Origin: an uncultured Verrucomicrobia subdivision 3 bacterium
GTDB lineage: Bacteria; Verrucomicrobiota; Verrucomicrobiia; Limisphaerales; UBA11358
Length of the DNA stretch: 64,000 nt
Reading direction: 5' to 3'
NCBI GenBank assembly: GCA_903858275.1
Contig: CAIOIC010000132.1
Coordinates: 1-64,000 of the forward strand
The notes under the pieces were generated by a model. That model did not search any database and had not been told where the DNA came from. It worked only from the letters and a program-made list of their open reading frames with translations. This document shows, piece after piece, positions 2,199 through 31,551 of this stretch. The stretch's first letter is position 1; each line of letters opens with the position of its first letter. A program made the position numbers and the translations under genes.

Positions 2199-2744
2199 TC
2201 ATCGTCCAACATCTTTCATGGCATCGGCATACGGTCGGCCGTCCACTAACACTTCCTTGATTTTCACGCGACCCGAAGCCGGCACCACCGCCTGCACGGT
2301 GAGTTTGCCGGCGGGATTACCCTGCCCTTCGGGGACGAAATATTTTTCAATACCGTAAACGACGTGAACGGCATTGCTTGCATTCCACCGGTTCCCATCG
2401 CTTCGGCCTTGAACCAAAACCTCCCCGATTCCGGCCGCCAGTTCATTCGTGCTGGCGCGGCTGACCTGGTAAAAATGATTTGTGCCCGGCACCAGGGCGA
2501 CAAAGATTTTCGTGCCGTAGGACAAATCCTTTTTTACGGGCGGCAAAAACAAGTTTGTCGGCACATCGCTGATATTGTAGTCCATAATCATATAATCGCC
2601 GCGCAGCAGGTCGCGCGGGTCCACCCGCCGGGTTTCCAGCAAGATGATTTGGCCATGAGACAGCGCGTGTTCCTGCGTGGCCACGGTATAGGCAATCCAC
2701 GCGCATTGCAGGGCGAGCACCAGGACGAGCAGCTTGAGTTTCAT
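2199..2744 (-). CDS. GDYXXLXY domain-containing protein
   Basis: N-terminal TM and DPRDLLRGDYMIMDYNIS motif; ATGA overlap with the upstream DUF2157-like gene. Confidence 0.8.
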   Translation of the reverse strand: MKLKLLVLVLALQCAWIAYTVATQEHALSHGQIILLETRRVDPRDLLRGDYMIMDYNISDVPTNLFLPPVKKDLSYGTKIFVALVPGTNHFYQVSRASTNELAAGIGEVLVQGRSDGNRWNASNAVHVVYGIEKYFVPEGQGNPAGKLTVQAVVPASGRVKIKEVLVDGRPYADAMKDVGR

Positions 2745-6198: not shown

Positions 6199-6777
6199 AT
6201 GCGCTTTAATTTAAAACAACCCAAGCCGCTTGGCGAAGACCAACCCAAACAAGGCAGAAAACGGGAGGCGGGCCTGACGCTGGTGGAGGTCGTTGTATCC
6301 GTGGCCATTGTGGCGCTGGTGTTTGGGGCGATTCTGAACGGCTATATCTCCACAGCCAAAAAAATTGAATGGACCGGCTACTCTCAAGCCGCCCAATCGC
6401 TCGGGCTGCAGTCAGTGGAACAGGCCCGGGGGGCGGTCTGGGATATTGCGATGGGCAAGAATCAACTGACCAATATTACATTACTGTCCTCTTCCTGGAA
6501 TGAGAGCACGAAGACTTACAGCGGATTTACGACCAATGTTTTGGATGTGCCCATCAAAGGCACGAACGTGGTAATGGCCACCAACTTTATCACCATTCAG
6601 CAAATCAACATCAGCGGTTCGACCAATGTCCAGATTCTGCTTCAGATCATGCGGGTGGACACGGTGTGGCCGTTCACCGGCTGGGGGAATAACAGCATCC
6701 GGTATTACACCAATTCCATCGGCACCTATTTTGCACCGGACAATCGCGATCCCACCACGCTGGGGGTTGGCAGCTGA
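6199..6777 (+). CDS. Prepilin-type protein, PilV/GspI-like
   Basis: GLTLVEVVVSVAIVALVFGAILNGYISTAKKIEW prepilin N-terminus. Confidence 0.85.
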   Translation: MRFNLKQPKPLGEDQPKQGRKREAGLTLVEVVVSVAIVALVFGAILNGYISTAKKIEWTGYSQAAQSLGLQSVEQARGAVWDIAMGKNQLTNITLLSSSWNESTKTYSGFTTNVLDVPIKGTNVVMATNFITIQQINISGSTNVQILLQIMRVDTVWPFTGWGNNSIRYYTNSIGTYFAPDNRDPTTLGVGS

Positions 6778-6783
6778 GGCACC

Positions 6784-7431
6784 ATGAAACTTTCACCACT
6801 CAATCAAAATAACAGGAAACCCCGGCTCACCGGGGCCGGTGGGTTCACCCTGGTCGAGATGATGGTCGCGATGGCCATATTCATGATCGCGGTCGCCGCG
6901 TTATTGAGCGCGCATATGATGGGGTTGAAACAGAATCAACTGATAGAGAGCAAGGCGGGAGCCAGCGACTCCTCCCGCCGGGCGATCAACAATCTCACGA
7001 AGGACATCCGTTCCGCCAAAATGTGGTTCATCGGAAACATGTCCGGTACAAATTTCACCGCCATCAACAGCGGGCGGGAGCAAGGCACGGCCCTGGCGCT
7101 ATGCGTAACCACCAACGGCTCCCAGTTTATTTATTATTATTTTGATTTGGCGGACACCAATAACAGCAACGGCAAATTAATGAGCACCACGAGCACCAAT
7201 TGGAACCCGGTGGTGCTGGCCTCCAATCTGATCAACACTCTGTACTTCACCGCGGAAAATTACAACGGCGTGGTTCAAACCAACAACTGGACCAGCAAGA
7301 GCTATAAAAACGTGATCCACACGACCCTGCAGTTCCGCCAATTCCAATTTCCCACCACCACGGTCGGGTCCAATTGCCTGTACGACTTCTACCAACTGGA
7401 TTACCGGGCCACGCCACATCTACCCGAATAA
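6784..7431 (+). CDS. Prepilin-type protein, PilW/GspJ-like
   Basis: GGFTLVEMMVAMAIFMIAVAALLSAHMMGLKQNQ prepilin N-terminus; 6 bp after the previous gene. Confidence 0.87.
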   Translation: MKLSPLNQNNRKPRLTGAGGFTLVEMMVAMAIFMIAVAALLSAHMMGLKQNQLIESKAGASDSSRRAINNLTKDIRSAKMWFIGNMSGTNFTAINSGREQGTALALCVTTNGSQFIYYYFDLADTNNSNGKLMSTTSTNWNPVVLASNLINTLYFTAENYNGVVQTNNWTSKSYKNVIHTTLQFRQFQFPTTTVGSNCLYDFYQLDYRATPHLPE

Positions 7432-7435
7432 ACGT

Positions 7436-9334
7436 ATGAAAAATCCCTTGTCCACAGCCACCCGACGGCACGGCTTTGCGCTGCTCGGGGTATTAATCAT
7501 GGCCGGAATCAGCATCGCCATCCTCGCCGGCATCATGTACCGCGGATACACCGTTTCCCTCCTCAACCAGCGGAACATCGATTACAACACCTGCTCCATC
7601 GCAGCAGAGGCGGCGGTGGAAAAAGTCTTCACGCGCATGGCCTGGGACTTTCAAAGCTACGGAGTGGCGGGGGTTACCACCCGGCTGTCCACTTATCAGG
7701 CATTTTATCCCACCGCCGCTGAAAACGCCTTTTGGGGCAACTTCGTATTTTCCGACGCGAACGGCCATGTGAACCAGACCTATGTCAGCCAGGTTGGCAC
7801 CTATAGCGGAGCGCTGCCTTCGGCTTACACCGGCTTGTTCACCTCCAACGCGCCGGTCTATCGCATCGTATCAAACGCGAAGCTGGCCACCTCCCAATAC
7901 AATGTCATCGGCACCGCGCAAGAGGATGTGCTGCTGGCGCTGGTGCCATTGACCACCTGGGCGATTTTTTACAACGGCCTGCTGGAGTTCACGCAGTGCG
8001 CCACCATGATCGTGAATGGCCGGGTTCAAGCCAACGGGCCGATTTATGTCGGCACCTCCGCCTCCCTGACCTTCAACAGCGGCGTGAGCACCACCGACAC
8101 TTTGACCGCCCCCTTCGTGGATGGTTTAACCTCGGGCTGGACCCCCGGAACCCCGAGCACCTGGCGCACCACCTTCAATGCCGTACCCAGCTACTCGGAG
8201 CATGTCCAAAGCGTCACGGTTTCGCTGAACATGACCAACTCCCATTTCCTGATCGACGTCCCGCCAGCCAACGAAGACCCGACATCCTCGGTGGGCCAGC
8301 AGCGGCTTTTTAATCAGGCGCAGATGGTGCTAATTGTCACCAACACTGCCAGCGGCCCGAATCCCACCGTGCAACTTAAACTGCAAAACAGTGTCAACGG
8401 CCAGGTGCCGGGCGGAGACCCCTCCCCGGTGATATTGACTTACACCAATGCCACGCCTGATTTTTTGCGCACCAACCTGCCCTTCCTGAGCCTGACCAAC
8501 TCGGCTTACGACCAGCGCGAGTATGACACCAATATCATCACCCAGATCAATGTGACAAATTTTGCGAATTGGATTGCCACCAATGACACCATCCAAGGCA
8601 AGCTGCCCTCCAGCGCGGGGGTTTATCCCACCATCCTTTACGTGGCCGACCGCCGCACCAACAGCGCCCGGCAACTGTCTTCAGTTCGCCTGGTGAACGG
8701 CGCCAGACTACCAGCCAACAACGGGCTGGGCTTTACGGTGGCCACCATGAACCCGCTCTATGTCCAGGGCAATTACAATGTGCAGACCGCCAGCAGCGCC
8801 GCCAATGCCTCCGCCGGCACCACCAACACCGCCAACACAGTGCCCGCCGCCTTATTGTCCGACTCGCTGACCGTTCTTTCCACCCACTGGTCGGATGCCG
8901 TCAGCTTTAGCTCCGTCTATACCACGGGCAATGCCAATTATACCGCCACGGACAACAACACCATCAACGCCGCCATCGTCACCGGCACCATGCCATCCAC
9001 CGGCACCAGCGGCACCACTTTCAGCGGCGGGGTCCACAACCTGCCACGGCTGCTGGAAGACTGGAGCAACAAAAACCTTTATTTGAACACCTCCATCCTG
9101 CGACTGTGGGACAGCAACATGGCCACGAACCAGTTCCGGAATCCCTATGGTTTCAGCCCTGCCCCGGTGAATGGCTATTACAACCCCCCCACCCGACGTT
9201 ACAGTTTTGACCAGAATTTTCTCAACTCCAGCAAGGTGCCGCCCGGCATTCCCGTCGCCCTCGTCCCCATCCGTTTTGCCTGGGTCACGCCGCCGCCAAA
9301 CACAATCAACTACACCAACTACCAGCACAATTAA
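7436..9334 (+). CDS. Large PilX/GspK-like pilus-associated protein
   Basis: HGFALLGVLIMAGISIAILAGIMYRGYTVSLLNQRNIDYNTCSIAAEAAVEKVF resembles PilX/GspK-type N-termini; position in the minor pilin series. Confidence 0.65.
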   Translation: MKNPLSTATRRHGFALLGVLIMAGISIAILAGIMYRGYTVSLLNQRNIDYNTCSIAAEAAVEKVFTRMAWDFQSYGVAGVTTRLSTYQAFYPTAAENAFWGNFVFSDANGHVNQTYVSQVGTYSGALPSAYTGLFTSNAPVYRIVSNAKLATSQYNVIGTAQEDVLLALVPLTTWAIFYNGLLEFTQCATMIVNGRVQANGPIYVGTSASLTFNSGVSTTDTLTAPFVDGLTSGWTPGTPSTWRTTFNAVPSYSEHVQSVTVSLNMTNSHFLIDVPPANEDPTSSVGQQRLFNQAQMVLIVTNTASGPNPTVQLKLQNSVNGQVPGGDPSPVILTYTNATPDFLRTNLPFLSLTNSAYDQREYDTNIITQINVTNFANWIATNDTIQGKLPSSAGVYPTILYVADRRTNSARQLSSVRLVNGARLPANNGLGFTVATMNPLYVQGNYNVQTASSAANASAGTTNTANTVPAALLSDSLTVLSTHWSDAVSFSSVYTTGNANYTATDNNTINAAIVTGTMPSTGTSGTTFSGGVHNLPRLLEDWSNKNLYLNTSILRLWDSNMATNQFRNPYGFSPAPVNGYYNPPTRRYSFDQNFLNSSKVPPGIPVALVPIRFAWVTPPPNTINYTNYQHN

Positions 9335-9535: not shown

Positions 9536-10630
9536 ATGGTTTTGCAACTGCCAGCATTTCTCAAAGGCAATTCAAGGACACAGCGTGCTCAAATGATCGC
9601 GGTGGATCTGGGCAGCCGCACGACCAAGGCCGTCCTGCTCGAACGCCGCGGCGAAATTTACGCCCTGACACGCTACGCCATGCTGGACGCGCCCATCTTT
9701 GAGAAAAAAATCTCGCCGGAGCTGCTATCCGATCATCTGCACGCCGTGACCGAAGCTTTGGGCAACACCACCAAATATCTCACGATGTCCGTGGGCCTGG
9801 AGGATGCCATTGTGCGGCAGATAGAAATGCCGCAAATTCCGCTGGACGAAATGCGGCTGGTGCTGAAGGTCAACCACAAGAACTATCTGCAGCAGGATTT
9901 GCCCAACCATGTCTTTGACTGCTTCATCATTCCCCCGCGCCCGCTGCTACCCAACGAGAAGGGATTTGATTCGGCACGATCCAGCGGCAGCGCCCCGAAA
10001 TTCAAAGTGCTGGCGGCAGCCGCCAAGCAGCAATTGATAACCGACTACACGCGGGCGGCGAATCAGGCCGGCTTGACGGTGGATTGCATGATCCCGGGAA
10101 TCCTCGCCCCCATCAACACCCTGGAACGGGTATTGCCGGAAGTATTCGCCAATGAAACCGTGGCCCTGGTGGATGTCGGCTTCAAGAACACCTCCGTGTG
10201 CGTGCTGGATCGCAGCGAACTGGCCCTGACCCGCGTGGTGAACATCGGGGGGGACAAACTCACCGCCGGCCTGGCGGAAACGATGAACATCAGCTACGCC
10301 GAAGCCGAAGGCATCAAAGTGGGCATGGCCCCGGAAGTGGAATCCGCCTTGCAGATGCAGGTGATTCCGCTGGGCCGGGAAATTCGCGCGTCGCTGGACT
10401 TCTTTGAACACGAGAATGACCGGCCGGTGACCCAGGTTTATGTGAGCGGCGGGGCGGCCCGGTCGGAAATGATCATGCAGATGCTGCATTCGGAATTGAT
10501 GCTGGAATGCAAAACCTGGAATCCGACCGGCTTTCTGCAATTGGCCCTACCGGGCCAGCAGGCGGTGGAAATAGAACACGTGGGACCGCAACTGACGGTC
10601 GCCATCGGCGCCGCGCTAGCCGCCCTTTAA
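9536..10630 (+). CDS. pilM: Type IV pilus assembly protein PilM (actin-like ATPase)
   Basis: [49 protein letters not shown] actin-fold motifs; followed by PilN/O-like genes. Confidence 0.88.
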   Translation: MVLQLPAFLKGNSRTQRAQMIAVDLGSRTTKAVLLERRGEIYALTRYAMLDAPIFEKKISPELLSDHLHAVTEALGNTTKYLTMSVGLEDAIVRQIEMPQIPLDEMRLVLKVNHKNYLQQDLPNHVFDCFIIPPRPLLPNEKGFDSARSSGSAPKFKVLAAAAKQQLITDYTRAANQAGLTVDCMIPGILAPINTLERVLPEVFANETVALVDVGFKNTSVCVLDRSELALTRVVNIGGDKLTAGLAETMNISYAEAEGIKVGMAPEVESALQMQVIPLGREIRASLDFFEHENDRPVTQVYVSGGAARSEMIMQMLHSELMLECKTWNPTGFLQLALPGQQAVEIEHVGPQLTVAIGAALAAL

Positions 10631-10634
10631 GACT

Positions 10635-11306
10635 ATGCCCATACGAATCAATCTATTGGCCGAGGCGCTGGAAGAAGAGGACCTGCGCCGGAGAGACCCC
10701 GTGAAGCGCGCCATTTATGTGGGCGTGCTGCTGGCGGTGCTGGCCCTGGTGTGGTGGAGCTCAACCCTGGTTGAATACATGCTGACGCGCAGCGGCTACA
10801 ACCAGATTCAGTCGGAAATCAGCTCGCGCACCAACGAATACAGCGTGGTGCAAATCAGCCAGAAAAAAATCAATGACACGCAGAACCGGCTGGAGGCGCT
10901 TCATAAATACAACGCCGCCCGCTTTTTACAGGGCAACCTGCTGAACGCACTGCAGCATATCTATGTGCCCAACGTGCAAATGGTCCGCCTGCGGCTGGAC
11001 CAAATTTACACCCCGAACGCGGGAGTGGCCGCCAAAACCAACAGCTTTGGCATTGTGGCGGGACACCCGGCCACTTCGACCGAACGGAAGCTGCTGACCC
11101 TGGAAGCCAGAGACTTCAGTTCAAGCCCGGGGGAACAGGTCAACACCTTTAAAAACAATCTGGCCGTGCAGGCTTATTTCAGCACCAACCTGAGCGCCAC
11201 CAACGGCTTGAGGCTGTCCAGCCTCTCGCCAACGCAAATCTCGCCCGATATCAAGCCGTATGTCATTTTTTCAGTGGAATGCCGTTTTATAGATAAAACA
11301 CCATGA
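10635..11306 (+). CDS. pilN: PilN-like inner membrane assembly protein
   Basis: MPIRINLLAEALEEEDLRRRDPVKRAIYVGVLLAVLALVWW: short INLL motif then a single TM; between pilM and a PilO-like gene. Confidence 0.75.
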   Translation: MPIRINLLAEALEEEDLRRRDPVKRAIYVGVLLAVLALVWWSSTLVEYMLTRSGYNQIQSEISSRTNEYSVVQISQKKINDTQNRLEALHKYNAARFLQGNLLNALQHIYVPNVQMVRLRLDQIYTPNAGVAAKTNSFGIVAGHPATSTERKLLTLEARDFSSSPGEQVNTFKNNLAVQAYFSTNLSATNGLRLSSLSPTQISPDIKPYVIFSVECRFIDKTP

Positions 11307-11878
11307 AACGCCTACCTCCAGCCAAACGGAACATGCTGATCGTCGTGGCGGCCGCCACACTGGCAATGATTGGCTTGATTTACCTCTTTTTGATTCTGCC
11401 GCAAAACGAAAAGAACACCAAGCTGGCCACGGACACCAAAAACGCCAAGGCCAAATGGGAACAATACAAGACGGTGATCAAACAGGCGAGCGCCACGGCA
11501 AAAAATCTGGAAGAAATCTCCGCGGAGCTAAGCCGCACCGAAAAAGACATCGCCTCCGGCGACGTTTATTCGTGGACTTACGACACCATCCGCCGATTCA
11601 AAGCGGATTACCATCTGGAAATCCCCAGCGTGGGCCAGCCCATTCTGGGCGAGGTTGACCTGCTGCCGGGCATTCCCTACAAGCAGGTCAAGATCACGCT
11701 GAATGGCACCGGGTATTTTCATGACATCGGCAAGTTTTTGGCGGATTTTGAAAACACTTTTCCGCACATGCGGATCGTCGGCTTGCAACTTGATCCCGCA
11801 CCGAGCCCATCCGGAGGCGCCTCGGAAAAACTGGCTTTCCGCACGGATGTGGTGGTGCTGGTAAAACCCAACCCTTGA
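11303..11878 (+). CDS. pilO: PilO/GspM-like inner membrane assembly protein
   Basis: Single N-terminal TM, coiled coil, then a ferredoxin-like C-terminal part (VKITLNGTGYFHDIGKFLADFENTFPHMRIVGLQL); ATGA overlap with the PilN-like gene. Confidence 0.75.
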   Translation: MKRLPPAKRNMLIVVAAATLAMIGLIYLFLILPQNEKNTKLATDTKNAKAKWEQYKTVIKQASATAKNLEEISAELSRTEKDIASGDVYSWTYDTIRRFKADYHLEIPSVGQPILGEVDLLPGIPYKQVKITLNGTGYFHDIGKFLADFENTFPHMRIVGLQLDPAPSPSGGASEKLAFRTDVVVLVKPNP

Positions 11879-12357
11879 ACAACGTGAAAACCCTGGCGAA
11901 ATATTTTTGGGCAATGGCGGGCGGCGCGGCCCTGCTGCAGACCGCGCTTGGCGCAACCGACAAGACCGCCCCCGCCAAAAACACCCCAGCCAAACCCGCG
12001 CTGACCAAGCCGGCGGCACCCAAAGCGGCCCCGGTACGGTCCGTGTTTGTGATGCCCACCAATGCCCGGGAAGGCCGCGACCCGTTTTTTCCGGAATCAC
12101 CCCGGCCGTTTGAAGCCGCCACCGCCGCCGCCACCCGCAATGTGGTGGAAGCCAGCTCGCTGGTTTGCAAGGGCGTGCTCGGCACCCCGGGACAGTTCGT
12201 AGCCATCATCAACAATCATGCTTTCGCGGTGGGCGACGAAGGCGAAGTCAAAACAGCGGGCGGACGCGTGCGGATCCGGTGCGTTGAAATCCGGAAAAAT
12301 CTGGTATCCATTGAAATCAACGGCCAGCGCCGCGATCTGAACATTGAAGCCCGCTGA
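11875..12357 (+). CDS. PilP/GspC-like periplasmic protein
   Basis: Ala/Pro-rich linker then NAREGRDPFFP...CKGVLGTPGQFVAIINNHAFAVGDEGEV...VRCVEI-like PilP/HR-domain pattern; between PilO-like and secretin genes. Confidence 0.6.
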   Translation: MNNVKTLAKYFWAMAGGAALLQTALGATDKTAPAKNTPAKPALTKPAAPKAAPVRSVFVMPTNAREGRDPFFPESPRPFEAATAAATRNVVEASSLVCKGVLGTPGQFVAIINNHAFAVGDEGEVKTAGGRVRIRCVEIRKNLVSIEINGQRRDLNIEAR

Positions 12358-12439: not shown

Positions 12440-14263
12440 ATGAAAAAAATCGCCATCATCATCCTGCTCGCCGGACTGACCAGCTTACTGGCAGCCAAGG
12501 CGCAAACCAATGCCGGCACCGTCACGCCGCCGGCTGAAGCCAACGCCCTGGCAGCGCCCGTCACCCAAGTTCCCGCCGTGCCCGGCACCAACCCGACGGC
12601 AGTGGAACTGGCCCCGGCCCCGCTGCCAGCCGCGACCACCAATGAGGTTGCGACCACGCCCGGCACCAACACCGTCCCAACCGCCGCCGCACCAACGGCT
12701 CCCGCCGGCACCAATTCCCCAGCCGCCGCCAGCGCGCCGGTGATTCCGTTGATTCATTTCTCGGATGTGCCCATTACCACGGCCATTGAAAGTCTGGCGC
12801 GGCAAGCCGGCATCAATTACATGCTCGATCCCAAGATTGGCTATGGGCTTCCGGATGCCAACGGCCAGATCAAGAGCGAGCCGCAGCTGTCCATTCGCTG
12901 GGAAGCCATCACCGCCGAAAACGCCCTGATGGCGCTGCTGGACAACTACGGCATGCAACTGGTCCGCAACAAGAACACCACCATTGCCCGCATCTCGCTC
13001 AAAGATCCCCTGGCTCCGCCACCGCTGGTCACCCGGGTGGTGCAGTTGAAATATGCCAGCACCACCAACATGGTGGACGCCATCCAGTCGGTCCTCACCG
13101 ACAAGCGCAGCAAAGTTCTCCCCGACAGCCGCACCAGCCAGATTGTGGTATCAGCCACGGAGCCGGAGCAAACCTCGGTGGACACGTTGATTGCCCAGCT
13201 TGACAAGCCAACCAAGCAAGTGCTCATTGAAGCCCGCTTTGTTGAAATCCAGAGCAATCCCCAAACCTCCAAAGGCATAGACTGGTCCGGAACGCTGGCT
13301 GGCCAAAATGTCAGCTTTGGCAATGGGGTAACGGGAGCTAAATCCACTTCCTCTGGTAGCTCCGGAGGTTCAAGCACAATTTCTGGCACAACCACATCCT
13401 TGCCGGGCACCCCGGTCACGACCACCTTTGGCGGACACACCATTACCACCACCCCGGAATCCAGCAGCGCGACCGTTTTGAGTTCACTCGTCCAAGGTTC
13501 CACCCAACCCGGTGGCGTTTCTTGGAACACATTAAGCGGATTGTCACCGGCCATTGGTTTTCTCAACGCCGATGGCGTGCAGGCGGTGATTTCCTTCCTG
13601 AACGTCTCCAAGGATGCCCGGACCATCTCCACTCCCCGCCTCGTGACTTTGGACAACCAGCTGGCCCGCATCAGCGTCACGCGGGGCATTCCGGTGATCA
13701 ATGTCTCCGCTGGCACCGTTCAAACGGCGGGCGGATCTTCCGTAACCTACAGCAATGTCGGCACCGTTCTGGAAGTGACTCCGCGCATCTCCGCCAATGA
13801 CTTCATCTGGCTTAAAGTCGTTCCTGAAATTTCGGTCAATCCCGGCGACAGCACGCGGGTCATTGGCGGCCAAATATATTCCGCCCCGCTGTTTGATTGC
13901 CGCAAAATTGAAACCCAGGTGCTCATCCCGAATGCCAACACGCTCGTCATGGGCGGATTGGTCAACGATAGTCCGTCTTCACAATCCAGCAAGGTTCCGC
14001 TCCTGGGCGACATACCGTATCTGGGCTATGCCTTCCGGAGCGAGACCAAGAGCTTGAACAAGCAAAATCTGATCATCTTCATCACGCCAACCATCGTCAA
14101 AGACAACGACTTTCAGCCAAACTCGAGCGACTATTTAAGCACCGCTCCGAACAGTGCCGATCTAAAATCTCCGGTCAAGTTCAACCCGAATTCCTCGTGG
14201 GACACCACGAAAACTCCCGACTGGAGCAACCCTTCGAACTCCAAGCCGGCGGGTAAACAGTAA
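12440..14263 (+). CDS. pilQ: Secretin (PilQ/GspD family)
   Basis: NolW-like repeats, VLIEARFVEIQ, VPLLGDIPYLGYAFRSETKSLNKQNLIIFITPTIV secretin signature; signal peptide and Pro/Ala/Thr-rich N-terminus. Confidence 0.92.
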   Translation: MKKIAIIILLAGLTSLLAAKAQTNAGTVTPPAEANALAAPVTQVPAVPGTNPTAVELAPAPLPAATTNEVATTPGTNTVPTAAAPTAPAGTNSPAAASAPVIPLIHFSDVPITTAIESLARQAGINYMLDPKIGYGLPDANGQIKSEPQLSIRWEAITAENALMALLDNYGMQLVRNKNTTIARISLKDPLAPPPLVTRVVQLKYASTTNMVDAIQSVLTDKRSKVLPDSRTSQIVVSATEPEQTSVDTLIAQLDKPTKQVLIEARFVEIQSNPQTSKGIDWSGTLAGQNVSFGNGVTGAKSTSSGSSGGSSTISGTTTSLPGTPVTTTFGGHTITTTPESSSATVLSSLVQGSTQPGGVSWNTLSGLSPAIGFLNADGVQAVISFLNVSKDARTISTPRLVTLDNQLARISVTRGIPVINVSAGTVQTAGGSSVTYSNVGTVLEVTPRISANDFIWLKVVPEISVNPGDSTRVIGGQIYSAPLFDCRKIETQVLIPNANTLVMGGLVNDSPSSQSSKVPLLGDIPYLGYAFRSETKSLNKQNLIIFITPTIVKDNDFQPNSSDYLSTAPNSADLKSPVKFNPNSSWDTTKTPDWSNPSNSKPAGKQ

Positions 14264-14290: not shown

Positions 14291-17200
14291 ATGAAAACCG
14301 CAACCCTCAATCGTGTGTGGCGGATTGCCTGTCGGGCACAGGTTCTGCGGGCAGGTATTGCTGTCACGACAGCCTTCATTTGCTTATTATCGGCAACGCA
14401 TCTGTTAGCAATGCCCACGGTAGCATGGCTTAGCGGCGGACCAAATACTGGTTACCTAGACGGTATTGGATACGTGAATGGCGACATCACCCTCGAAGCG
14501 GAATATCACACACCTTGTGGTATCGCAGTTGATCAATCCGGTAATTTCATTCTGGTAGCCGACCGGGACAACAATGCCGTTCGCGTGCTTCAGCTTGACA
14601 TCAACACCACCGCTACGCTTCTGACTACAACCAACTACGTTCCAGTAACTAATCTATTCAACAAACCGGTTGGTGTCGCGATTGATAATTATTACAACAT
14701 CTTTGTTCTTAATTACGCCAAGGGAACCAATGGATATGTTATACAATTCGACTATAACGGCGAATTGGTAGCCACCAACCTCACCAAATTAACTAATGCT
14801 GCTGGAATCGCGCTGGACTTTTCTGGAAACATATATGTTACGGCTAGCAACCGGGTTTTCAAAGTTACGCCCAGCGGTGTCAGCAATGTTGTCGCCACCA
14901 TACCTGGAGCCACCTTGCAAGGGATTGCCGTCAAACATACCAGCGGATTGCTTGCCGTCTGCGACTCCGCCCAAAACGGAGTTTACCTCATCAACCCCAT
15001 CAGTGGTGTCGTCACCACCAATGCCGGGTTCCATGGCGCTGGTGATTTTATTACCGTTGGCAACACCTCAATCAGTAACTCTGCCAAATTTTTTCAACCC
15101 ACCGGCATAGCCGCAACGGGCGATGGAACCCTGATTGTTGCCGATTACGGAAACAACCGAGTAAAGGCCGTGCGGAACGATGGCTCAGTAACAAATATTT
15201 ACGGCGTCAAATCCGATTATTGGATCGACCCATATAAAGGATGGATGGATGGAAAAGTTGCACTTCCTGATAATTACGGCGGCGTTGCCGCCCGTCAGCC
15301 CAATGGTGTGACCATAGCACAAGACGGCACGGTTTATGTCACGGAAGATTACTACCACATCATCCGCAAAGTAACTGGCACCGGCTTGATTCCCCCGCCG
15401 CTCCCGCCGCCCCCACCGCCAGCGGCTCCAACTATCCTGACCATCACCGCCAGCTACGTCACCCTCAATAATGGACAGGTAAGTTTGACTTGGACAGCGG
15501 TGCCCACGGCCACGAATTACATCGTCAAACGCTCGCAGTCGAGCGGAACTGAAAGCCCGATTACCACCACTGGCGGCACAATCTTCACTGATACCAACGT
15601 CATCAACGGGAACACCTATTACTATGTTGTTTCCGCCGTGAACGCCGGCGGCGAAGGCCCCAACTCGGCTGAAGCCAGCATCATGGTGCCGCTGCCGCCC
15701 GTGCCCGACCCGCAAATTGGTTATGTGGAATTCCCGCCCCCGCTTTTTACTTCCGTCTTTCACCCGGTATCCGTGTCTGGCGTTACCTTCAACAATGACA
15801 AACCAATTGTAATTATTGGGACTACCGGAAGTCATACCTATTATAATTATTCGAACACTCCGTCGGTAATCAATGTGCCCGATCCCACGTCAGGTTCTCC
15901 TGAAATTCTAGAGGGCTATGCAGATGGTAATTATGCCCTTTCACCGAATTGGACGGTTAATCAGATCAAGCCGAACCTTGGCATCAAGGCCATCGGCATG
16001 CAAGCCGGTCATTCCAACAGCGCCGTGGTTTCTGCGTTGTTCCAATTTGTAACCGCCAACCCCGTCATCAACGACATCGGCAATGGTGCCGGCGGGTTTA
16101 ACATCAGCGACATAACCGCCGGAGCCCATCTGTATTTCACCCTGGATGGATCCGATCCTTCCTCCACAAACTACGCCGCCAATGGCGACTTGGGGGTGGC
16201 TCCTGCCTCGAATCAATGGTCCAATGTCACCTTCCCCATTACGAGCAACACTTTGTTCAAGGTTCGCGCCTTCAAAGACAATTACCAGCCCAGCTCCATT
16301 GTCAGCAACCTGTTCACCCTTGCCGGCACACGCTACACGGCCATCACCTTCGGCAAGCCCTTTGGCGAACCGCACAGCGCCTTTGTCGCCCGTCCGGGCC
16401 AGTATTTCTATGCGCCGGTGACGCTGCAATTGCTGCCGGGCTTCGACAAAATGTATAGCCTGCAATTCAATGTGGCGGTCACCAACGGATACACCAATAT
16501 CATCAATGGCGCGGCCATTCCGCCGGTCGTAAACGGAGACGGCATTAATTTCCGCTCCATGCTGATGACGCAGGTCGAACCGGCTGAAGGGCTTTATTTT
16601 CCGCCGGCCGACGGCCAATGGTATTTGCCGATTCCCATGTTAATTTCCACGAACAATCTTGGCTCATCGGTGTTTTTAAACAGCACAAACAATCTCCTCG
16701 GGGTTGGCTGGTTATATCGAACCGGGTTTAAATACAAATCGTCGGATACCAACGGCGTCGTTTATCTTGATTTCGACACCGCCAAGCAGGACTTGATCAA
16801 CTCTTCGATTGCCCATGACACTTTGTTCAGCAAAGCCGCCGGAGTGGTGCTGGCCGGGGCCTATTCATTCCACGTGCCGGCAGGCGCCAATATCGGCGAC
16901 CAATATTTCATCCAGCTTGGCAGCCCCTCGGCCACCGCCGACGGCGTGGGCGCACCGGGTGCGAATATTACCATTGCAGCACCAGCCTTGAGCCAGGCGG
17001 TGACCGTGGGTGCGCCGGCATATGTGGTTGGCGATGCCGCCCCGTTCCACTGGTTTAATGCCGGAGATTTCGGCAATACCAACCTGGACAATTCCGACGT
17101 CATGCAGGTCTATCAAGCAGGCATCCTGGTCGATGTAAACGGGAATGGAATCAACATGCCACCAACCAATTCCGACATGTATCTGGCCATGGATTCATCC

Positions 17201-18337
17201 GGCGGCTTTGGTGCATGGGATGGTGTTAATGGTTATTATACCAATGCTGGTCCGGCATCATTGATCCAACAGCAAGCCATGTGGGATGGCAATGACCTGA
17301 CCATCAATACGAATGCGTTTGGTGACGGGCTGCTGGACATCAATGACCTCTACGTCACCTTCCGCCGCTCCCTGGATCCGAGCCTGACATGGTATAAACG
17401 CTATTGGACCAATAACCAATTTGTGGCCGTAACCGCGACCAATCTGGCTTACAACTCCAACAGTCCGCATCTGACCGCCCATGCCGCAGTGGCAGCCAAA
17501 GTTTCCAGCACGAATGATTACCGCCAATCAACCATCAACTTCAGCGCCGGCGACGCGGTGGTGACGGGGAACCAAACCATCCAGATTCCCATCAACGCGC
17601 AGATATTCGGCAGCTATCCCCTGCGGGTGCTGGGCTTGAGCCTCACCGTCGTCCCGCTGGATGGCTCGCCTGCCATCACCACGCCGGTGACCTTTACGCC
17701 GGCGGCCGCTCTCGGCAGCCCGACCATCGAATCACCCAAAGGCGCGGTCAGTTATGCCGCCGCGTGGTTGAATAGCGGCATCAGCGGGCTTACCGGCAAT
17801 GTGCAAATCGGCACGCTCGCAGTGACTTTACCGACAAACGCAACGAGTCTCTCGGCTTATGCTATCCACTTTAACAAGGCGTCTGGTTCACCTAACGGCT
17901 TGGCGGTTTTCCCGAAACAGACGTTGACGGGCCTGATCACCCTGTCCAGTCGCACCAATTCCGGTTACAGCGACGGAATACCGGATTCGTGGCGCCTGCG
18001 CTGGTTCGGCACCACCAACAACATGCTATCCCGCTCCAACGCCTGTCCCACGAGCGACGGCATCAGCAACTGGAAGAAATTCGTGGCCGGGGTTGACCCC
18101 AACACGGCCAACAACTTCCCCAGCGTGAACACCAAGTCGCCCGTTCCGACCGGTTACAACCGATCCATCCACTGGCCAACCGTCAGCGGCAAACAATACG
18201 TGATTGAGCGTTCCACCGGCCTGTTCGCCGGTGACTGGTCCAGCATCCTAACCACCAATGGCACGGGCACGGACATTGAATTTAACGACAACGTCAAAGG
18301 CGGAGCCCACTTCTACCGCGTGCGCATCCTGCCCTGA
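14291..18337 (+). CDS. Large secreted NHL-repeat / FN3 / chitobiase-C domain protein with cohesin-like and dockerin-like segments
   Basis: Repeated NHL units (GIAVDQSGNFILVADRDNNAVRVL, GIAATGDGTLIVADYGNNRVKAV), Pro-rich linker, FN3 (PTILTITASYVTLNNGQVSLTWTAVPTATNYIVKRSQ), DGSDPSSTNY CHB_HEX_C-like motif, GDFGNTNLDNSDVMQVYQAG and FGDGLLDINDLYVTFRRSLD EF-hand/dockerin-like halves. Confidence 0.8.
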   Translation: MKTATLNRVWRIACRAQVLRAGIAVTTAFICLLSATHLLAMPTVAWLSGGPNTGYLDGIGYVNGDITLEAEYHTPCGIAVDQSGNFILVADRDNNAVRVLQLDINTTATLLTTTNYVPVTNLFNKPVGVAIDNYYNIFVLNYAKGTNGYVIQFDYNGELVATNLTKLTNAAGIALDFSGNIYVTASNRVFKVTPSGVSNVVATIPGATLQGIAVKHTSGLLAVCDSAQNGVYLINPISGVVTTNAGFHGAGDFITVGNTSISNSAKFFQPTGIAATGDGTLIVADYGNNRVKAVRNDGSVTNIYGVKSDYWIDPYKGWMDGKVALPDNYGGVAARQPNGVTIAQDGTVYVTEDYYHIIRKVTGTGLIPPPLPPPPPPAAPTILTITASYVTLNNGQVSLTWTAVPTATNYIVKRSQSSGTESPITTTGGTIFTDTNVINGNTYYYVVSAVNAGGEGPNSAEASIMVPLPPVPDPQIGYVEFPPPLFTSVFHPVSVSGVTFNNDKPIVIIGTTGSHTYYNYSNTPSVINVPDPTSGSPEILEGYADGNYALSPNWTVNQIKPNLGIKAIGMQAGHSNSAVVSALFQFVTANPVINDIGNGAGGFNISDITAGAHLYFTLDGSDPSSTNYAANGDLGVAPASNQWSNVTFPITSNTLFKVRAFKDNYQPSSIVSNLFTLAGTRYTAITFGKPFGEPHSAFVARPGQYFYAPVTLQLLPGFDKMYSLQFNVAVTNGYTNIINGAAIPPVVNGDGINFRSMLMTQVEPAEGLYFPPADGQWYLPIPMLISTNNLGSSVFLNSTNNLLGVGWLYRTGFKYKSSDTNGVVYLDFDTAKQDLINSSIAHDTLFSKAAGVVLAGAYSFHVPAGANIGDQYFIQLGSPSATADGVGAPGANITIAAPALSQAVTVGAPAYVVGDAAPFHWFNAGDFGNTNLDNSDVMQVYQAGILVDVNGNGINMPPTNSDMYLAMDSSGGFGAWDGVNGYYTNAGPASLIQQQAMWDGNDLTINTNAFGDGLLDINDLYVTFRRSLDPSLTWYKRYWTNNQFVAVTATNLAYNSNSPHLTAHAAVAAKVSSTNDYRQSTINFSAGDAVVTGNQTIQIPINAQIFGSYPLRVLGLSLTVVPLDGSPAITTPVTFTPAAALGSPTIESPKGAVSYAAAWLNSGISGLTGNVQIGTLAVTLPTNATSLSAYAIHFNKASGSPNGLAVFPKQTLTGLITLSSRTNSGYSDGIPDSWRLRWFGTTNNMLSRSNACPTSDGISNWKKFVAGVDPNTANNFPSVNTKSPVPTGYNRSIHWPTVSGKQYVIERSTGLFAGDWSSILTTNGTGTDIEFNDNVKGGAHFYRVRILP

Positions 18338-18355
18338 AATTTGCTGAACCCACGG

Positions 18356-18385
18356 CGGCGTGTCTCCAAGACACGCCGTTTTTAT
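18356..18385 (+). terminator. Rho-independent terminator
   Basis: cggcgtgtc-tccaa-gacacgccg followed by tttttattttg; 18 bp after the stop of the large NHL gene. Confidence 0.85.
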
Positions 18386-21938: not shown

Positions 21939-24900
21939 ATGGAAAAACCGAAATCGAATTCCGCCAAGGGTCCCAAGAGCACCACGGGGAAAAACCAGGA
22001 ACCCGCCAGAGCCGCCACCCCGCCCGCACCGGTGAGGGTGCCACCGCTGTTCCGCAAGAATGACTGGCTAACGGCGGGACTGGTTTTTGGCGTCATCTGG
22101 ATCATTTATCTTTTGACGCTGGCGCCGGAGCTGACCCTGGAAGATTCGGGCGAGCTGTGCACGGCTTCGTATTACGCCGGCATCCCGCATCCGCCGGGCT
22201 ATCCGTTCTGGGCGCTATACAGCTGGTTTTGGACGTGGATTCTCCCGATCGGCAACGTGGCCTGGCGGGTGGAAGTGGGCCAATCGTTTGCCGCCGCGCT
22301 CGGCTGCGGCATGGTGGGGTTGATGGTATCGCGCGGCAGCAGCATGCTCATTGAGGGCATCGAGGAAATCAAAAACATTTCCCGCGGCTGGGAAACCGCC
22401 ATTTGCATGGTATCCGGGTTCGTGGCCGGGACCTTGATGGGCATGGATGGATTCATGTGGAAGGAGTCCGTGGCCATCAACCGCATTTCCCTGTTCGGCG
22501 TCCCCTGGCTGATGGCGGTCATGCTCTTCCTGATGCGCTGGAGCTACGCGCCGCAGCAGCGCCGCTACCTGTATCTGGCCATGCTGTTTTACGGCATCTG
22601 CGCGACGATTCACCAGACGCTGCTCTTGAGCGCCATGGGGGTGGAAATCATCATCGTGCTGGCGCATCCGCGCATCGGCCGCGATTTATTCCTGGGGAAC
22701 TCCTTGATTTATATCGTATGCCTGGTGCTGAAGAGTTCCATCCCAGCGCTGGCGAACATGACGGATGTGGAAGGCGTGCTTTTCCACATGGTGGGATTGG
22801 GATCGATTTTTACCGGCGGCTGGCTGGCGCTAAAAACCCAGGGCGCCGGAACGGAATGGAAAACCCTTTTAGTAATGGGTTTGCTGTGGGTCGCGGGCGT
22901 GTCCTTCTATTTCTACGAGGCGATTTCAGGCATGACGGTTCCGCCCATGCAATGGGGTTACCCGCGCACGGTGGAGGGATTTTTCCACGCGTTGAGCCGC
23001 GGGCAATATGAAACGGCGCGCGGCCTGAATGTGTTTTCCGATCCCAGCCGCTTCATGTTTCAGCTGTGGTATATCGTCCAGGGCTTATCTGAATCCTTTA
23101 GCTGGGTTTACATCTTTGTCGGCCTTTTGCCCTTCCTGTTCCTGCTGAAGATGCACAAGCGGGAGCGCAGCTGGATCATCGGCGTCACCGCCGTGTATAT
23201 TTGCATTTCGGTGCTGCTGGGCATTTTGTTGAACGTCTCGCCCGATCGCCAGTCCTCCGACCTCAACAAGGTTTTCTATACCGCCTCGCACGGACTGTTC
23301 GCCCTGATGATCGGCTACGGTTTAACTTTACTGGCGGCGTATGTGGCGACGCACTACGCGAACTTCCGCCGCTGGGGATTAATGGGCGGGGCCGTGGCCG
23401 TGATCCTGGCGGTTTACTGCCTGCTCGATGCGACGGGCAAACTTTATTACGGCCCCGCGGGTTCCATCAGCCTCTCGCAACTGCCGCAGCACATCGCGAT
23501 GGCGTTTGACAAGGATCAATTTGGCAATCCCGTGTTTGCCAACCTGATCCTGCTCGCCCTGTCGGTCATTTTCATCGCGGCCCTGTTCCTCTACCGCAGC
23601 CGCGGCCCGGTGCTGATTCTCCTCGGGATTTTCCTGATGATGCCCGTCTGCTCCGGCCTGACGCACTGGTATAAGAGCGAGCAGCGCAACCACTGGTTCG
23701 GCTACTGGTTCGGGCACGACATGTTCACGCCGCCGTTCCTGGACACCACCGGCAAGCTGAGCTACGACAACGACCGGCGCGCGGCGCTGCTGAAAGACCC
23801 CAAACAGGCCAAGCAGATCTACCCGGAAATGGCGCGCAATACGGTGCTCTTTGGCGGCACGGATCCCGGCCGTTTCTGCCCGACTTACATCATTTTCTGC
23901 GAGAGCTTCATTCCGCACCGCTGCCAGCCGGCGCAGGATCAAAAATTTGACCGCCGCGATGTATATATCATCACGCAAAACGCGCTGGCCGACGGCACCT
24001 ACCTGAGCTATTTGCGCTCCCAATACAACCGCTCCAAGCAGATTGACCCGCCCTTTTTCAGCCGGCTGTTCAAATATGTTTCCAGCCTGATCCTGGGGGC
24101 CAACAAGTCCGGCAACGTGGTCATGAGCGGCATTGACACCGGCAGTGGCGACTCGGGAAATTCGCTGATTGAAGGCGTGGCCAAGCTGCTTTATTACACG
24201 CTCGATGTACCGTTCACCAAATGGGGCACGCATGTCGAAAAAAAACGCCGGGCCGAAGGGGTTTATCCGCCCAGCGAAATTTACATCCCCTCGCCGGAAG
24301 ATTCGCAAAAATGCTTTGAGAATTACACCCAGGACGTCGCCCGCCGCTCCCAGCTCAATCAACTGCGCCCCGGGGAAGACGTGCGCATTGAAAACGGCCG
24401 CGTCCAGGTTTCCGGCCAGGTGGCCGTGATGAACATCAACGGCCTGCTGTGCAAAGTCATCTTCGACAACTGCCCGACCAATGATTTCTACATTGAGGAA
24501 AGTTTTCCGCTCGAATGGATGTATCCCCACGAAACCCCGTTTGGCATCATCATGAAGATCAACCGGAATCCGGTGACCGAACTTTCCCAGGAGGTCTTTG
24601 ATCTCGATCACAAATTCTGGAGCGATTTCTCCACCCGGCTGTGCGGCAATTGGATCACCTACGACACCACCGTCCAGCAAATCGCCGATTTTTGCGAGCG
24701 GACCTATGTGCGCAACAATTACAAGGGCTATACCGGCGATCGCGCCTTCGTTCGTGACGACGACGCGCAAAAAGCCTTCTCCAAACTGCGCAGCTCCCAG
24801 GCCGGCATGTATGCCTGGCGGCTGGGACAACAATGTCCGCCGGAGTTCCGCCAAAAATCGGCAGCAGCGCAAGCCGCGCTCATCCGCGAAACCGATTTTG

Positions 24901-25574
24901 CCTACAAGCAGGCGTTTACCTTCTGCCCATACAGCCCGGAAGCCGTCTATCGCTACATCAATTTTCTGATGCAATACGGACGTTTTGACGACGCCGTCAT
25001 CGTCGCCAAAACCTGCAAAAAGCTGGATCCCTACAATAATTCCATCACCGAACTCATCCGCCAGCTCGAGGGTTACAAAGCCCAATCCGCCGACCGGACC
25101 CAGGCGATCAACCAGATCAACACGATGGAAGCCATCGCCCGCACCAACCCGAGCAATATCGCCAACCTCCTCACGCTCGGCGGGGCTTATCTGCAAATGC
25201 AGCAGACCAACCGCGCCGCGGAACTTTTTGAGCTGGCGCTGAACAGCCCCGCCATCAAATTTCCGGATGCGGCCGCCATTGCCCAAAGTTTTGCCGGGAT
25301 GGGCAATCTCGGCAAACTGGAGACGGCGCTTCAGAAGCTGGTGGCGTTGGCGCCGGATCAACCCGAGCCACGCTACGACCTGGCCGCGCTGCAGGCCATC
25401 GGCGGGAAAACCGCCGAATCCCTGCAAAATCTTAAAAGCGCGTTGGAAATCAGCGCCAAAAGACTGGCCAGCAACCCCACCGCCAATGATTTGCTGAAAA
25501 CCGCGCGGACCGACCCCCGTTTAACCGCGCTGCGCGCCTTGCCGGAATTTCAAAAACTGGTTCCACCCAAGTAG
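21939..25574 (+). CDS. DUF2723 domain-containing membrane protein with C-terminal TPR-like region
   Basis: LTLAPELTLEDSGELCTASYYAGIPHPPGYPFWALY is characteristic of DUF2723; C-terminal helical repeats. Confidence 0.9.
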   Translation: MEKPKSNSAKGPKSTTGKNQEPARAATPPAPVRVPPLFRKNDWLTAGLVFGVIWIIYLLTLAPELTLEDSGELCTASYYAGIPHPPGYPFWALYSWFWTWILPIGNVAWRVEVGQSFAAALGCGMVGLMVSRGSSMLIEGIEEIKNISRGWETAICMVSGFVAGTLMGMDGFMWKESVAINRISLFGVPWLMAVMLFLMRWSYAPQQRRYLYLAMLFYGICATIHQTLLLSAMGVEIIIVLAHPRIGRDLFLGNSLIYIVCLVLKSSIPALANMTDVEGVLFHMVGLGSIFTGGWLALKTQGAGTEWKTLLVMGLLWVAGVSFYFYEAISGMTVPPMQWGYPRTVEGFFHALSRGQYETARGLNVFSDPSRFMFQLWYIVQGLSESFSWVYIFVGLLPFLFLLKMHKRERSWIIGVTAVYICISVLLGILLNVSPDRQSSDLNKVFYTASHGLFALMIGYGLTLLAAYVATHYANFRRWGLMGGAVAVILAVYCLLDATGKLYYGPAGSISLSQLPQHIAMAFDKDQFGNPVFANLILLALSVIFIAALFLYRSRGPVLILLGIFLMMPVCSGLTHWYKSEQRNHWFGYWFGHDMFTPPFLDTTGKLSYDNDRRAALLKDPKQAKQIYPEMARNTVLFGGTDPGRFCPTYIIFCESFIPHRCQPAQDQKFDRRDVYIITQNALADGTYLSYLRSQYNRSKQIDPPFFSRLFKYVSSLILGANKSGNVVMSGIDTGSGDSGNSLIEGVAKLLYYTLDVPFTKWGTHVEKKRRAEGVYPPSEIYIPSPEDSQKCFENYTQDVARRSQLNQLRPGEDVRIENGRVQVSGQVAVMNINGLLCKVIFDNCPTNDFYIEESFPLEWMYPHETPFGIIMKINRNPVTELSQEVFDLDHKFWSDFSTRLCGNWITYDTTVQQIADFCERTYVRNNYKGYTGDRAFVRDDDAQKAFSKLRSSQAGMYAWRLGQQCPPEFRQKSAAAQAALIRETDFAYKQAFTFCPYSPEAVYRYINFLMQYGRFDDAVIVAKTCKKLDPYNNSITELIRQLEGYKAQSADRTQAINQINTMEAIARTNPSNIANLLTLGGAYLQMQQTNRAAELFELALNSPAIKFPDAAAIAQSFAGMGNLGKLETALQKLVALAPDQPEPRYDLAALQAIGGKTAESLQNLKSALEISAKRLASNPTANDLLKTARTDPRLTALRALPEFQKLVPPK

Positions 25575-29205: not shown

Positions 29206-29234
29206 TTGCAGATAAACATGGCTTGCGCTAGTGT
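29206..29234 (+). promoter_or_regulatory. Candidate promoter upstream of pilT
   Basis: TTGCAG-N17-TAGTGT preceded by GC. Confidence 0.35.
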
Positions 29235-29254
29235 CGAATCAACGAGAGGACTTT

Positions 29255-30352
29255 ATGGCTAAAATTGACGCATTTTTCAACCTGATGTTTGAGCAGAAGG
29301 CCTCCGACCTGCACATGGCTTCCGGCAATCCCCCGATGATGCGCATCAACGGAGAGCTGCAACGGGTAGATTATCCCCCGCTGGATAACGATACGCTCAA
29401 GGCCATGCTCTACGAAATCGCGCCGGATTACAAAATCAAACAGTTTGAAGAAACCGGCGATGTGGACTTCGGCTATGAAATCCCGAACATCTCGCGCTTC
29501 CGCGTGAACTTCTTCAACCAGAAAAACGGCGTCAGCGCGGTGTTCCGGCAAATTCCGAGCCGCGTGCTGTCGTTTGAAGATTTCGAAAAATTAGAAGCCC
29601 CGCTGCCCTCGGTATTAAAAAAGTTTGCGATGCTAAACCGCGGGCTCGTGGTCGTCACCGGCCCCACCGGCTCCGGCAAATCCACCACCCTCGCGGCCGT
29701 CGTGGATTACTGCAACCGGAACCGCAAAGATCACATCATCACCGTGGAAGACCCGATCGAGTTTGTCCACGAAAGCAAAAACTGCCTGGTCAATCATCGC
29801 GAGGTCGGCGTGCATACGAAGTCATTTGCCTCGGCGCTGCGCGGCGCCTTGCGCGAAGACCCGGACATCATCCTCGTCGGCGAAATGCGCGATCTGGAAA
29901 CCATCGAACTGGCGATCACGGCGGCCGCAACCGGCCACCTGGTTTTCGGCACGCTGCACACGCAAAGCGCCGCCAAGACCGTGGATCGCATCATTGACGT
30001 TTTTCCCGCCGACCAGCAGAACAAGATCCGGCAAACATTGTCCGAGGCGTTGAAAGGCGTCGTGGCGCAAACATTGTTCAAGCGGTCGGATAAGAAAGGC
30101 CGCGTGGCGGCATTCGAAGTCCTGGTATTCAACACCGCGGTGGCCAACCTCGTACGCGAAGGCAAGACGCATCAGATTCAAGGCATGATCCAGATCGGCA
30201 AGAAATTCGGCAACCAGCAATTGGACGACCACATCATGGAGCACGTCCGCATGAAGCGCATCACCCCGGAAGACGCCTTTGACAAGGCGCTCGACAAGAA
30301 AAAATTCCGCCCGCTGTTAGCACACCCGCCGGAAGACGAAGATGCCCTGTAA
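29255..30352 (+). CDS. pilT: Type IV pilus twitching motility ATPase PilT
   Basis: DLHMASGNPPMMRINGELQRVDYPPL; Walker A GPTGSGKSTTLAAVVDYCN; ILVGEMRDLETIELAITAAATGHLVFGTLHTQSAAKTVDRIIDVFP. Confidence 0.95.
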   Translation: MAKIDAFFNLMFEQKASDLHMASGNPPMMRINGELQRVDYPPLDNDTLKAMLYEIAPDYKIKQFEETGDVDFGYEIPNISRFRVNFFNQKNGVSAVFRQIPSRVLSFEDFEKLEAPLPSVLKKFAMLNRGLVVVTGPTGSGKSTTLAAVVDYCNRNRKDHIITVEDPIEFVHESKNCLVNHREVGVHTKSFASALRGALREDPDIILVGEMRDLETIELAITAAATGHLVFGTLHTQSAAKTVDRIIDVFPADQQNKIRQTLSEALKGVVAQTLFKRSDKKGRVAAFEVLVFNTAVANLVREGKTHQIQGMIQIGKKFGNQQLDDHIMEHVRMKRITPEDAFDKALDKKKFRPLLAHPPEDEDAL

Positions 30353-30354
30353 TT

Positions 30355-31551
30355 ATGCGAAAACCGGAACTGGATCAGATTCTGACAACGATGCTGGCAG
30401 CGCAGCCGGAAGTATCCGATTTAAATTTCACCGTAGACCGCCCGCCCCAAGTCGAAGCCTACGGCGAACTCAAGCCGGTCGTTCTGGATCCGCCGATAGC
30501 AAAACTGACACCGTTCCAGATTGAGAGCATCGCGCTCAACATCATCGGGGACAACCTCTGGCATATCGAGGATTTACTGCGGCACGGCTCGTGCGACGCC
30601 TCGTACGCGCTGAGCGACAAAGCCCGGTTCCGCGTAAATATTTTTTCGCAGCGCGGCAATTATTCCATTGTCTGCCGCCAGTTAAACGCGGCAATCCCGA
30701 CCCTTGAACAATTAAAGTTTCCGCCCATTCTAAAGGATATACCCCGCGAAAAAACCGGGCTGGTGCTCGTCACGGGGGCCACCGGCTCAGGAAAATCCAC
30801 CACCCTGGCGGCCATCCTAAATGAAATCAACCGGCACAGTCCCGTCCACATTGTGACGCTGGAAGACCCCGTGGAATACCTGCACACCCATGACAAAGCC
30901 ACGTTCAACCAACGGGAACTGGGCATTGATTTTGATTCCTATGCCAACGGTTTGCGCGCCGCGCTGCGCCAGGCGCCGAAAGTGATTCTCGTCGGCGAAA
31001 TGCGCGACCAAGACACGGTTAAGATCGCCTTAAGCGCCGCCGAAACCGGCCATCTGGTCTTGAGCACGCTACATACCATCAACGCCGGGGAGACCATTAA
31101 CCGCATTCTGGGCATGTTCGAGCCGGAGGAGCAGGAGCAGATTCGCGTCCGGCTGGCTGACTCACTGCGCTGGGTGGTAAGCCAGCGGCTCGTGCCCAAG
31201 ATTGAAGGCGGGCGGTTTGCCCTGCTGGAAATCATGGGCGCCAACCTGCGCACCCAGGAAAGCATCCGGCTGGGCGAGAGCGAAGGAAAAACTTTTTATG
31301 AAATCATCGAAGCCAGCTATCCCTTTGGCTGGCGGAATTTTGATCAGAACTGCATTGAAGCCTATGACCGCGGCGTCATCACGGAAGACACCGCGATGCT
31401 CTATTGCACCAAGCGCAGCGTCGTCTCCCGCGCCATTGACAACTTAAAAAAGGCCCGCGGCGAGCAAACCAGCGATGTGAACACCCTCCGAATGAAAGCC
31501 GGCAGCCATGGCGGAACGGCGGCGGCACCACCCGTCTTAAAAATTAAATGA
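30355..31551 (+). CDS. Second PilT/PilU-type retraction ATPase
   Basis: Walker A GATGSGKSTTLAAILNEIN; VILVGEMRDQDTVKIALSAAETGHLVLSTLHTINAGETINRILGMF; 2 bp after pilT. Confidence 0.93.
   Translation: MRKPELDQILTTMLAAQPEVSDLNFTVDRPPQVEAYGELKPVVLDPPIAKLTPFQIESIALNIIGDNLWHIEDLLRHGSCDASYALSDKARFRVNIFSQRGNYSIVCRQLNAAIPTLEQLKFPPILKDIPREKTGLVLVTGATGSGKSTTLAAILNEINRHSPVHIVTLEDPVEYLHTHDKATFNQRELGIDFDSYANGLRAALRQAPKVILVGEMRDQDTVKIALSAAETGHLVLSTLHTINAGETINRILGMFEPEEQEQIRVRLADSLRWVVSQRLVPKIEGGRFALLEIMGANLRTQESIRLGESEGKTFYEIIEASYPFGWRNFDQNCIEAYDRGVITEDTAMLYCTKRSVVSRAIDNLKKARGEQTSDVNTLRMKAGSHGGTAAAPPVLKIK

Follow-up and report, generated by a model that had tools for sequence, protein, structure and literature searches.

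A modular propeller protein encoded directly after pilQ in Limisphaerales, a candidate pilus-linked surface adhesin not homologous to PilY1

We analysed a stretch of 64,000 nucleotides (nt) from an uncultured Verrucomicrobia subdivision 3 bacterium of the order Limisphaerales (GenBank assembly GCA_903858275.1, contig CAIOIC010000132.1, positions 1 to 64,000; hereafter the window), in which a large protein is encoded directly downstream of the pilus secretin gene pilQ. This protein, of 1348 residues, is the product of the open reading frame (ORF) at 14291-18337 and is given here the working name TIP. We propose, with about an even chance of being right, that TIP is an accessory, modular, pilus-linked surface adhesin of Limisphaerales, which would act like PilY1/PilC without being homologous to it. 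No description of the TIP gene was found in the literature.

The ORF runs uninterrupted from the ATG at 14291 to the stop at 18337, and 27 nt separate its start from the end of pilQ at 14263, exactly as the original prediction, which proposed that TIP fills the PilY1 niche, had described. To see where relatives occur, we surveyed 59 genomes of the order, that of the window included, in which the closest secretin was mapped and the relatives' regions were read with profile hidden Markov models; long matches to TIP were common among them. An alignment-based scan of named genome contigs, overlapping this set, gave 72 loci, while scanning genome contigs with a single sequence gave no match and viral contigs held no TIP relatives. 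The 72 loci were titled Limisphaerales, Pedosphaera, Limisphaera or Verrucomicrobia subdivision 3, some being evidently misnamed; those labelled Akkermansia muciniphila, Klebsiella pneumoniae or Proteobacteria in public records (L112, L115, L128, L107) are probably misnamed metagenome bins. Removal of duplicates left 81 TIP contigs, and the 59 with at least 600 nt upstream were assessable. TIP lay directly 3' of pilQ and on the same strand in 57 of these 59 distinct contigs, its first start falling between -122 and +86 nt from the pilQ stop; the negative gaps may be over-long starts, because starts were called mechanically. One TIP copy was present in 29 of the 57 contigs, two tandem copies in 17 and three in 11. 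Both exceptions to this adjacency look like damage. In G034 (L057), pilQ is gone and TIP is reduced to a broken match to residues 853-1219 only, and in G147 (L162, positions 2700-3000) the sequence passes directly from the end of pilO to the middle of the TIP coding sequence, with pilP and pilQ missing, a junction which may be either a deletion or an assembly join. Among the matches listed from a class-wide sample of 286 genomes, none placed the TIP core outside the order, and other orders of the class were matched by the C-terminal domain only.

The presence of TIP depends on the pil locus. Where a pilQ orthologue exists, 24 of 43 genomes have the TIP core; where none does, 2 of 16 have it (Fisher p 0.003, a test which ignores relatedness), and these two hold a fragment at a contig edge (G006) and the decayed remnant of G034. 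The relation is asymmetric: the contig edge aside, TIP was not kept intact without the pil cassette, whereas the cassette was kept without TIP. Genomes lacking TIP retain pilMNOPQ, and the Nramp gene that the window carries often comes next. On the PilQ tree, presence and absence of TIP required nine changes, seven of them forced by well-supported branches, and with so many losses the idea of TIP as a fixed component throughout the order was rejected. PilY1 is needed for pilus extension in Myxococcus (PMC7541494); the retention of pilMNOPQ through many TIP losses suggests that the machine does not need TIP in this manner. In the sister genome G016, whose PilQ is 81% identical to that of the window, pilQ and nramp are 489 nt apart. 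The DNA of G016 is similar to that of the window as far as about 14349, a point within the first 20 codons of TIP, and similarity resumes near 19017. This looks like a TIP deletion leaving a 5' remnant, although the upstream block of similarity is weak over its final 80 nt. Directly after pilQ, G016 (L058) carries a long GC hairpin at the TIP start site, possibly a new terminator that arose after TIP loss.

TIP is tied to pilQ and not to the neighbouring minor-pilin module. PilY1 is encoded with the minor pilins pilV/W/X, and three prepilin-like genes do lie upstream of TIP in the window, but they occur independently of it across relatives, so that we rejected the idea that TIP tracks them. 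The largest, encoding 632 residues, is present without TIP in G016, G017, G045, G051, G052 and G057, and absent from G008, G030, G037, G038, G039 and G058 although TIP is present. Because the module does not track TIP, the argument for a PilY1 counterpart from V/W/X-like neighbours, on which the original prediction leaned, is weakened.

The features of the TIP gene in the window are the following.

14291..18337, + strand: TIP, a putatively secreted modular propeller protein, 1348 residues (ORF; relatives at the same site)
14291..14410, + strand: putative Sec-type signal peptide, residues ~1-40, no lipobox seen (sequence reading)
14417..15388, + strand: six-bladed NHL beta-propeller, residues ~43-366 (Pfam, AlphaFold, Foldseek)
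15389..15427, + strand: Pro-rich linker, module-exchange breakpoint (identity switch in two genome pairs; junction sequences)
15428..15688, + strand: FN3 domain, residues ~380-466 (Pfam, PDB phmmer, AlphaFold strands)
16103..16306, + strand: Fn3_assoc / CHB_HEX_C_1 domain, residues 605-672 (Pfam)
16340..17035, + strand: cohesin-like domain 1, residues ~684-915 (profile of relatives against PDB)
17048..17425, + strand: dockerin-like module, two acidic loop-helix units, residues ~920-1045 (invariant residues; model)
17522..17956, + strand: cohesin-like domain 2, residues ~1078-1222 (profile against PDB, Pfam in relatives, Foldseek)
17966..18334, + strand: C-terminal domain (DGIPDSWRLR...FYRV), residues 1226-1348 (class-wide matches)
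18354..18380, + strand: intrinsic terminator, the strong one expected after the gene (12-pair stem followed by a T run)

The N-terminus, read by eye, has a basic N-region and a hydrophobic core ending in ...HLLA/MPT, suggesting that TIP is exported via a Sec-like signal. An NHL propeller, FN3 and chitobiase-C-like segments had been foreseen, and Pfam recovered all of them: the NHL propeller at E 5e-17, Fn3_assoc / CHB_HEX_C_1 at E 3e-8 / 3e-7 and fn3 weakly at E 0.0037, with a PDB phmmer match to the Fn3-like protein 3mpc at E 5e-11. AlphaFold, supplied with 13 aligned relatives, produced six four-stranded blades and then the FN3 domain, with a predicted local distance difference test score (pLDDT) of 85. 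The nearest solved folds to the propeller in Foldseek were designed Pizza6 propellers and the NHL domain of TRIM71 (E to 1e-16), and all three methods thus agree that NHL repeats build the propeller. Both the pilus-gene neighbourhood and the propeller came out in favour of the original prediction. The number of propellers ranges from one to about four, with three in G029 and about four in G025. NHL repeats also match ScyF of scytonemin-producing cyanobacteria (NF035926, E 2e-9), but at 37 bits against a cut-off of 350, the generic repeat alone aligning. No catalytic domain or S-layer anchor was seen in TIP.

Residues 680-1348 are uncovered by any Pfam match. Acidic loops were all that had been recognised between about 680 and 1222; the loops exist, and this region also holds two cohesin-like domains, so that the C-terminal half probably consists of two such domains around a dockerin-like acidic module. 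When profiles of relatives were compared with the PDB, cohesins were the best matches both for residues 1078-1226 (38 relatives, E 6e-4) and for residues 684-925 (28 relatives, E 0.004-0.09). AlphaFold gave a moderate model of the C-terminal 883 residues (pLDDT 69), with which Foldseek retrieved several cohesins at template modelling (TM) scores of 0.70-0.76 over about 150 residues, pointing to a cohesin jelly-roll fold at a position in the model that we infer. The Pfam Cohesin family (PF00963) matched weakly in 5 of 38 members (best E 0.0066) and not in the window's own domain. Full-length Foldseek matches to complement/alpha-2-macroglobulin-like proteins, at TM about 0.1, were treated as generic beta-sandwich strings.

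The two acidic loops span D926-D936 and G1011-D1019, and an alignment of 33 relatives shows no variation at D936, D962, D968, G1011, D1012 or D1019. Both loops precede a helix in the model, where pLDDT is mostly below 60. Assignment to dockerins by profile failed: PF00404 matched none of the 33 relatives and the module had no Pfam or PDB match. We term it only dockerin-like, because it resembles a dockerin without matching dockerin models. In sum, TIP shares with cohesin/dockerin systems (including non-cellulosomal cohesins such as 2xdh) a beta-sandwich fold, weak but specific profile matches of the flanking domains and two predicted acidic loop-helix units between them; it differs in that Pfam does not recognise the dockerin-like unit, the first loop looks one residue shorter and both modules stand in one chain. 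The last ~120 residues form a domain that many other large proteins of the class carry on its own. This domain, at 17966-18334, is possibly a sorting or anchoring domain, and residues 1226-1348 are apparently missing from the TIP genes in L042, L044 and L046.

TIP genes are also mosaics, a new finding: the Pro-rich linker is where propeller and C-terminal module are swapped. In G030 and G031, which the PilQ tree joins as sisters, PilQ and the propeller are each 90% identical, against 49-50% from the linker to the end of TIP. Their DNA is about 93% identical on both flanks of the exchanged segment, returning just after the gene, and the tree of the C-terminal core rejects their sisterhood (approximately unbiased (AU) test, p 3e-5). 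The window and G002 show the reverse pattern, with 70% identity in PilQ, 39% in the propeller and 81% in the rest of TIP, and the propeller tree rejects their pairing (AU p 4e-8). The propeller of the window's TIP has its nearest counterparts in G030/G031 (66%), and the core has its nearest in G002 (81%). The AU p-values are optimistic because both pairs were picked after the identities were seen; the large identity switch with clean flanks makes chance an unlikely cause of the mosaics.

TIP is not PilY1, in keeping with the non-homologous protein of the original prediction. PilY1 is the classical pilus-tip protein, which primes assembly and needs a calcium-binding loop to function. PF05567, the C-terminal propeller domain of PilY1/PilC, had no match in TIP at E<=0.1, and neither the genome of the window nor any of 58 relatives had one over the cut-off. 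TIP also departs from PilY1 in its fold, in the number of blades and in the order of domains. In a sample of the phylum, 1 of 289 genomes had a PF05567 match (G106, L166), partial and covering model positions 1-157. This match is the sole positive control of the search, none of the 14 control genomes having matched. In PilY1 the propeller is C-terminal, has seven blades and bears an EF-hand-like site (PMC13190605). The propeller of TIP is N-terminal and made of six NHL blades, and the PilY1-like seven-bladed structure 3HX6 was not among the 50 Foldseek matches listed. Moreover, TIP follows pilQ and not a minor-pilin operon, and has been dispensable in evolution while the pilus cassette stayed. 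Like PilY1, TIP is a large, presumably soluble protein with a putative Sec signal, a beta-propeller and acidic loops that may bind calcium. Both are encoded in a type IV pilus (T4P) operon and have variable modules and, in some species, several paralogues, Myxococcus having three of PilY1 (PMC7541494).

The pilus locus around TIP contains the following genes.

6199..9334, + strand: three prepilin-like genes, 6199-6777, 6784-7431 and 7436-9334 (632 residues), optional neighbours (N_methyl in the first two)
9536..10630, + strand: pilM (Pfam PilM_2, E 9e-28)
10635..12357, + strand: pilN-, pilO- and pilP-like genes (gene order, weak T2SSM/GspM similarity; conserved in relatives)
12440..14263, + strand: pilQ-type secretin (Pfam Secretin, E 2e-43; NCBIfam gspD 1e-63, PilQ 2e-55)
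29231..31551, + strand: two pilT/pilU-family retraction ATPase genes (NCBIfam pilT_fam, both above cut-off)

PilM, N/O/P-like genes, a secretin and PilT together mark a type IVa pilus locus. Of the upstream genes named in advance, those for PilM and the secretin are certain, and those for N/O/P were identified from gene order and weak similarity. Two of the three prepilin-like genes carry the N_methyl motif, and the third has a prepilin-like N-terminus without Glu5 and without a Pfam N_methyl match. PilX homologues likewise lack Glu5. The third product also matches HpsA, a cyanobacterial hormogonium polysaccharide protein, weakly (E 9e-12, far under cut-off), and that of 6784-7431 matches TIGR02599, Verru_Chthon cassette protein C, at E 1e-4. 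Near the pilus genes, 21939-25574 encodes a TMEM260-like O-mannosyltransferase of 1211 residues with TPR repeats. The cassette is related to the PilM/secretin cassette of Akkermansia T4P (Amuc_1098 secretin, Amuc_1101 PilM-like), with weak NCBIfam matches of the window's PilM, PilO-like and PilQ proteins, all far under family cut-offs; unlike the cassette, the TIP core was confined to Limisphaerales among the class matches listed.

Both NCBIfam scores of the secretin, for gspD and for PilQ, are under the curated cut-offs. Their near equality, together with cohesin-like and dockerin-like parts in one chain, makes a different role a serious rival, although we consider it unlikely: TIP might be cargo that leaves the cell in soluble form through the PilQ machine, as in type II-like secretion, and would then build an extracellular matrix or a cohesin/dockerin scaffold and not be part of the pilus. 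Such modules in one chain, with one to three tandem paralogues, would suit self-assembly, and two other proteins of the genome match Dockerin_1. However, the cassette includes PilM, two PilT/PilU ATPases are encoded in the same window, and with just two dockerin matches a scaffold would have little to carry; on the same count, the case for a cellulosome-like scaffold with many partners is weak. It is improbable that TIP is an envelope accessory of the secretin (a periplasmic or outer-membrane ring, gate or anchor) whose 3' position reflects contact with PilQ. While pilQ is the tightest partner of TIP and, contig edge aside, intact TIP was never seen without the pil cassette among relatives, the frequent loss of TIP with pilMNOPQ kept, its large size and its varying propeller number are unlike an assembly factor, and Pfam found no outer-membrane anchor or peptidoglycan-binding domain. 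Less probable still is a passenger, a pilus-unrelated secreted protein held in place by operon inheritance: many genomes live without TIP and its domains are generic secreted-protein modules, but TIP has stayed beside pilQ in many families of the order, even where it was duplicated in tandem or recombined internally, and the one clear case of pilQ loss (G034) has just a decayed TIP.

Altogether, the pattern fits a pilus surface accessory, most akin to PilY1/PilC, better than a secretin assembly factor or a passenger. The adhesin reading is favoured by adjacency to and dependence on pilQ, the six-bladed propeller in varying number, the cohesin-like domains, module exchange, loss with the cassette kept, PilT/PilU in the window and a genome without PilY1. 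TIP would be made together with the PilMNOP-secretin cassette, cross the inner membrane by its signal peptide and reach the cell surface with the secretin or the pilus. The N-terminal propeller, swapped and multiplied between species, may be a variable ligand-binding or adhesive head, and the cohesin-like, acidic dockerin-like and cohesin-like parts may form a calcium-stabilised stalk and docking module. Surface location, adhesion, calcium binding and placement at the pilus tip we infer. Several points weigh against this reading: the association of TIP with the pilus is a genetic one, the minor-pilin module does not track TIP, calcium binding is a prediction from sequence, the C-terminal model is of moderate quality with a dockerin-like module that matches no known family, and module exchange, duplication and loss would also be expected of pilus-unrelated secreted proteins in an operon. 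The idea of a PilY1 niche is thus partly supported, and the observation behind it is confirmed.

Among the non-pilin partners of type IVa pili, PilY1 is known best, but Verrucomicrobiota, which carry pilus genes, almost never have it (1 of 289 sampled genomes). The conserved pilQ-linked propeller protein is a concrete candidate for a PilY1 replacement in one order and offers residues and modules that can be tested. The mosaic TIP genes are a natural domain-swap experiment on the roles of propeller and C-terminal module. More tentatively, Limisphaerales may use in place of PilY1 a non-homologous two-module family of pilus-associated proteins, an exchangeable NHL head and a cohesin/dockerin-like base recombined between species at a fixed linker beside pilQ. 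If true, the binding specificity of the pilus could be changed with the machine unchanged.

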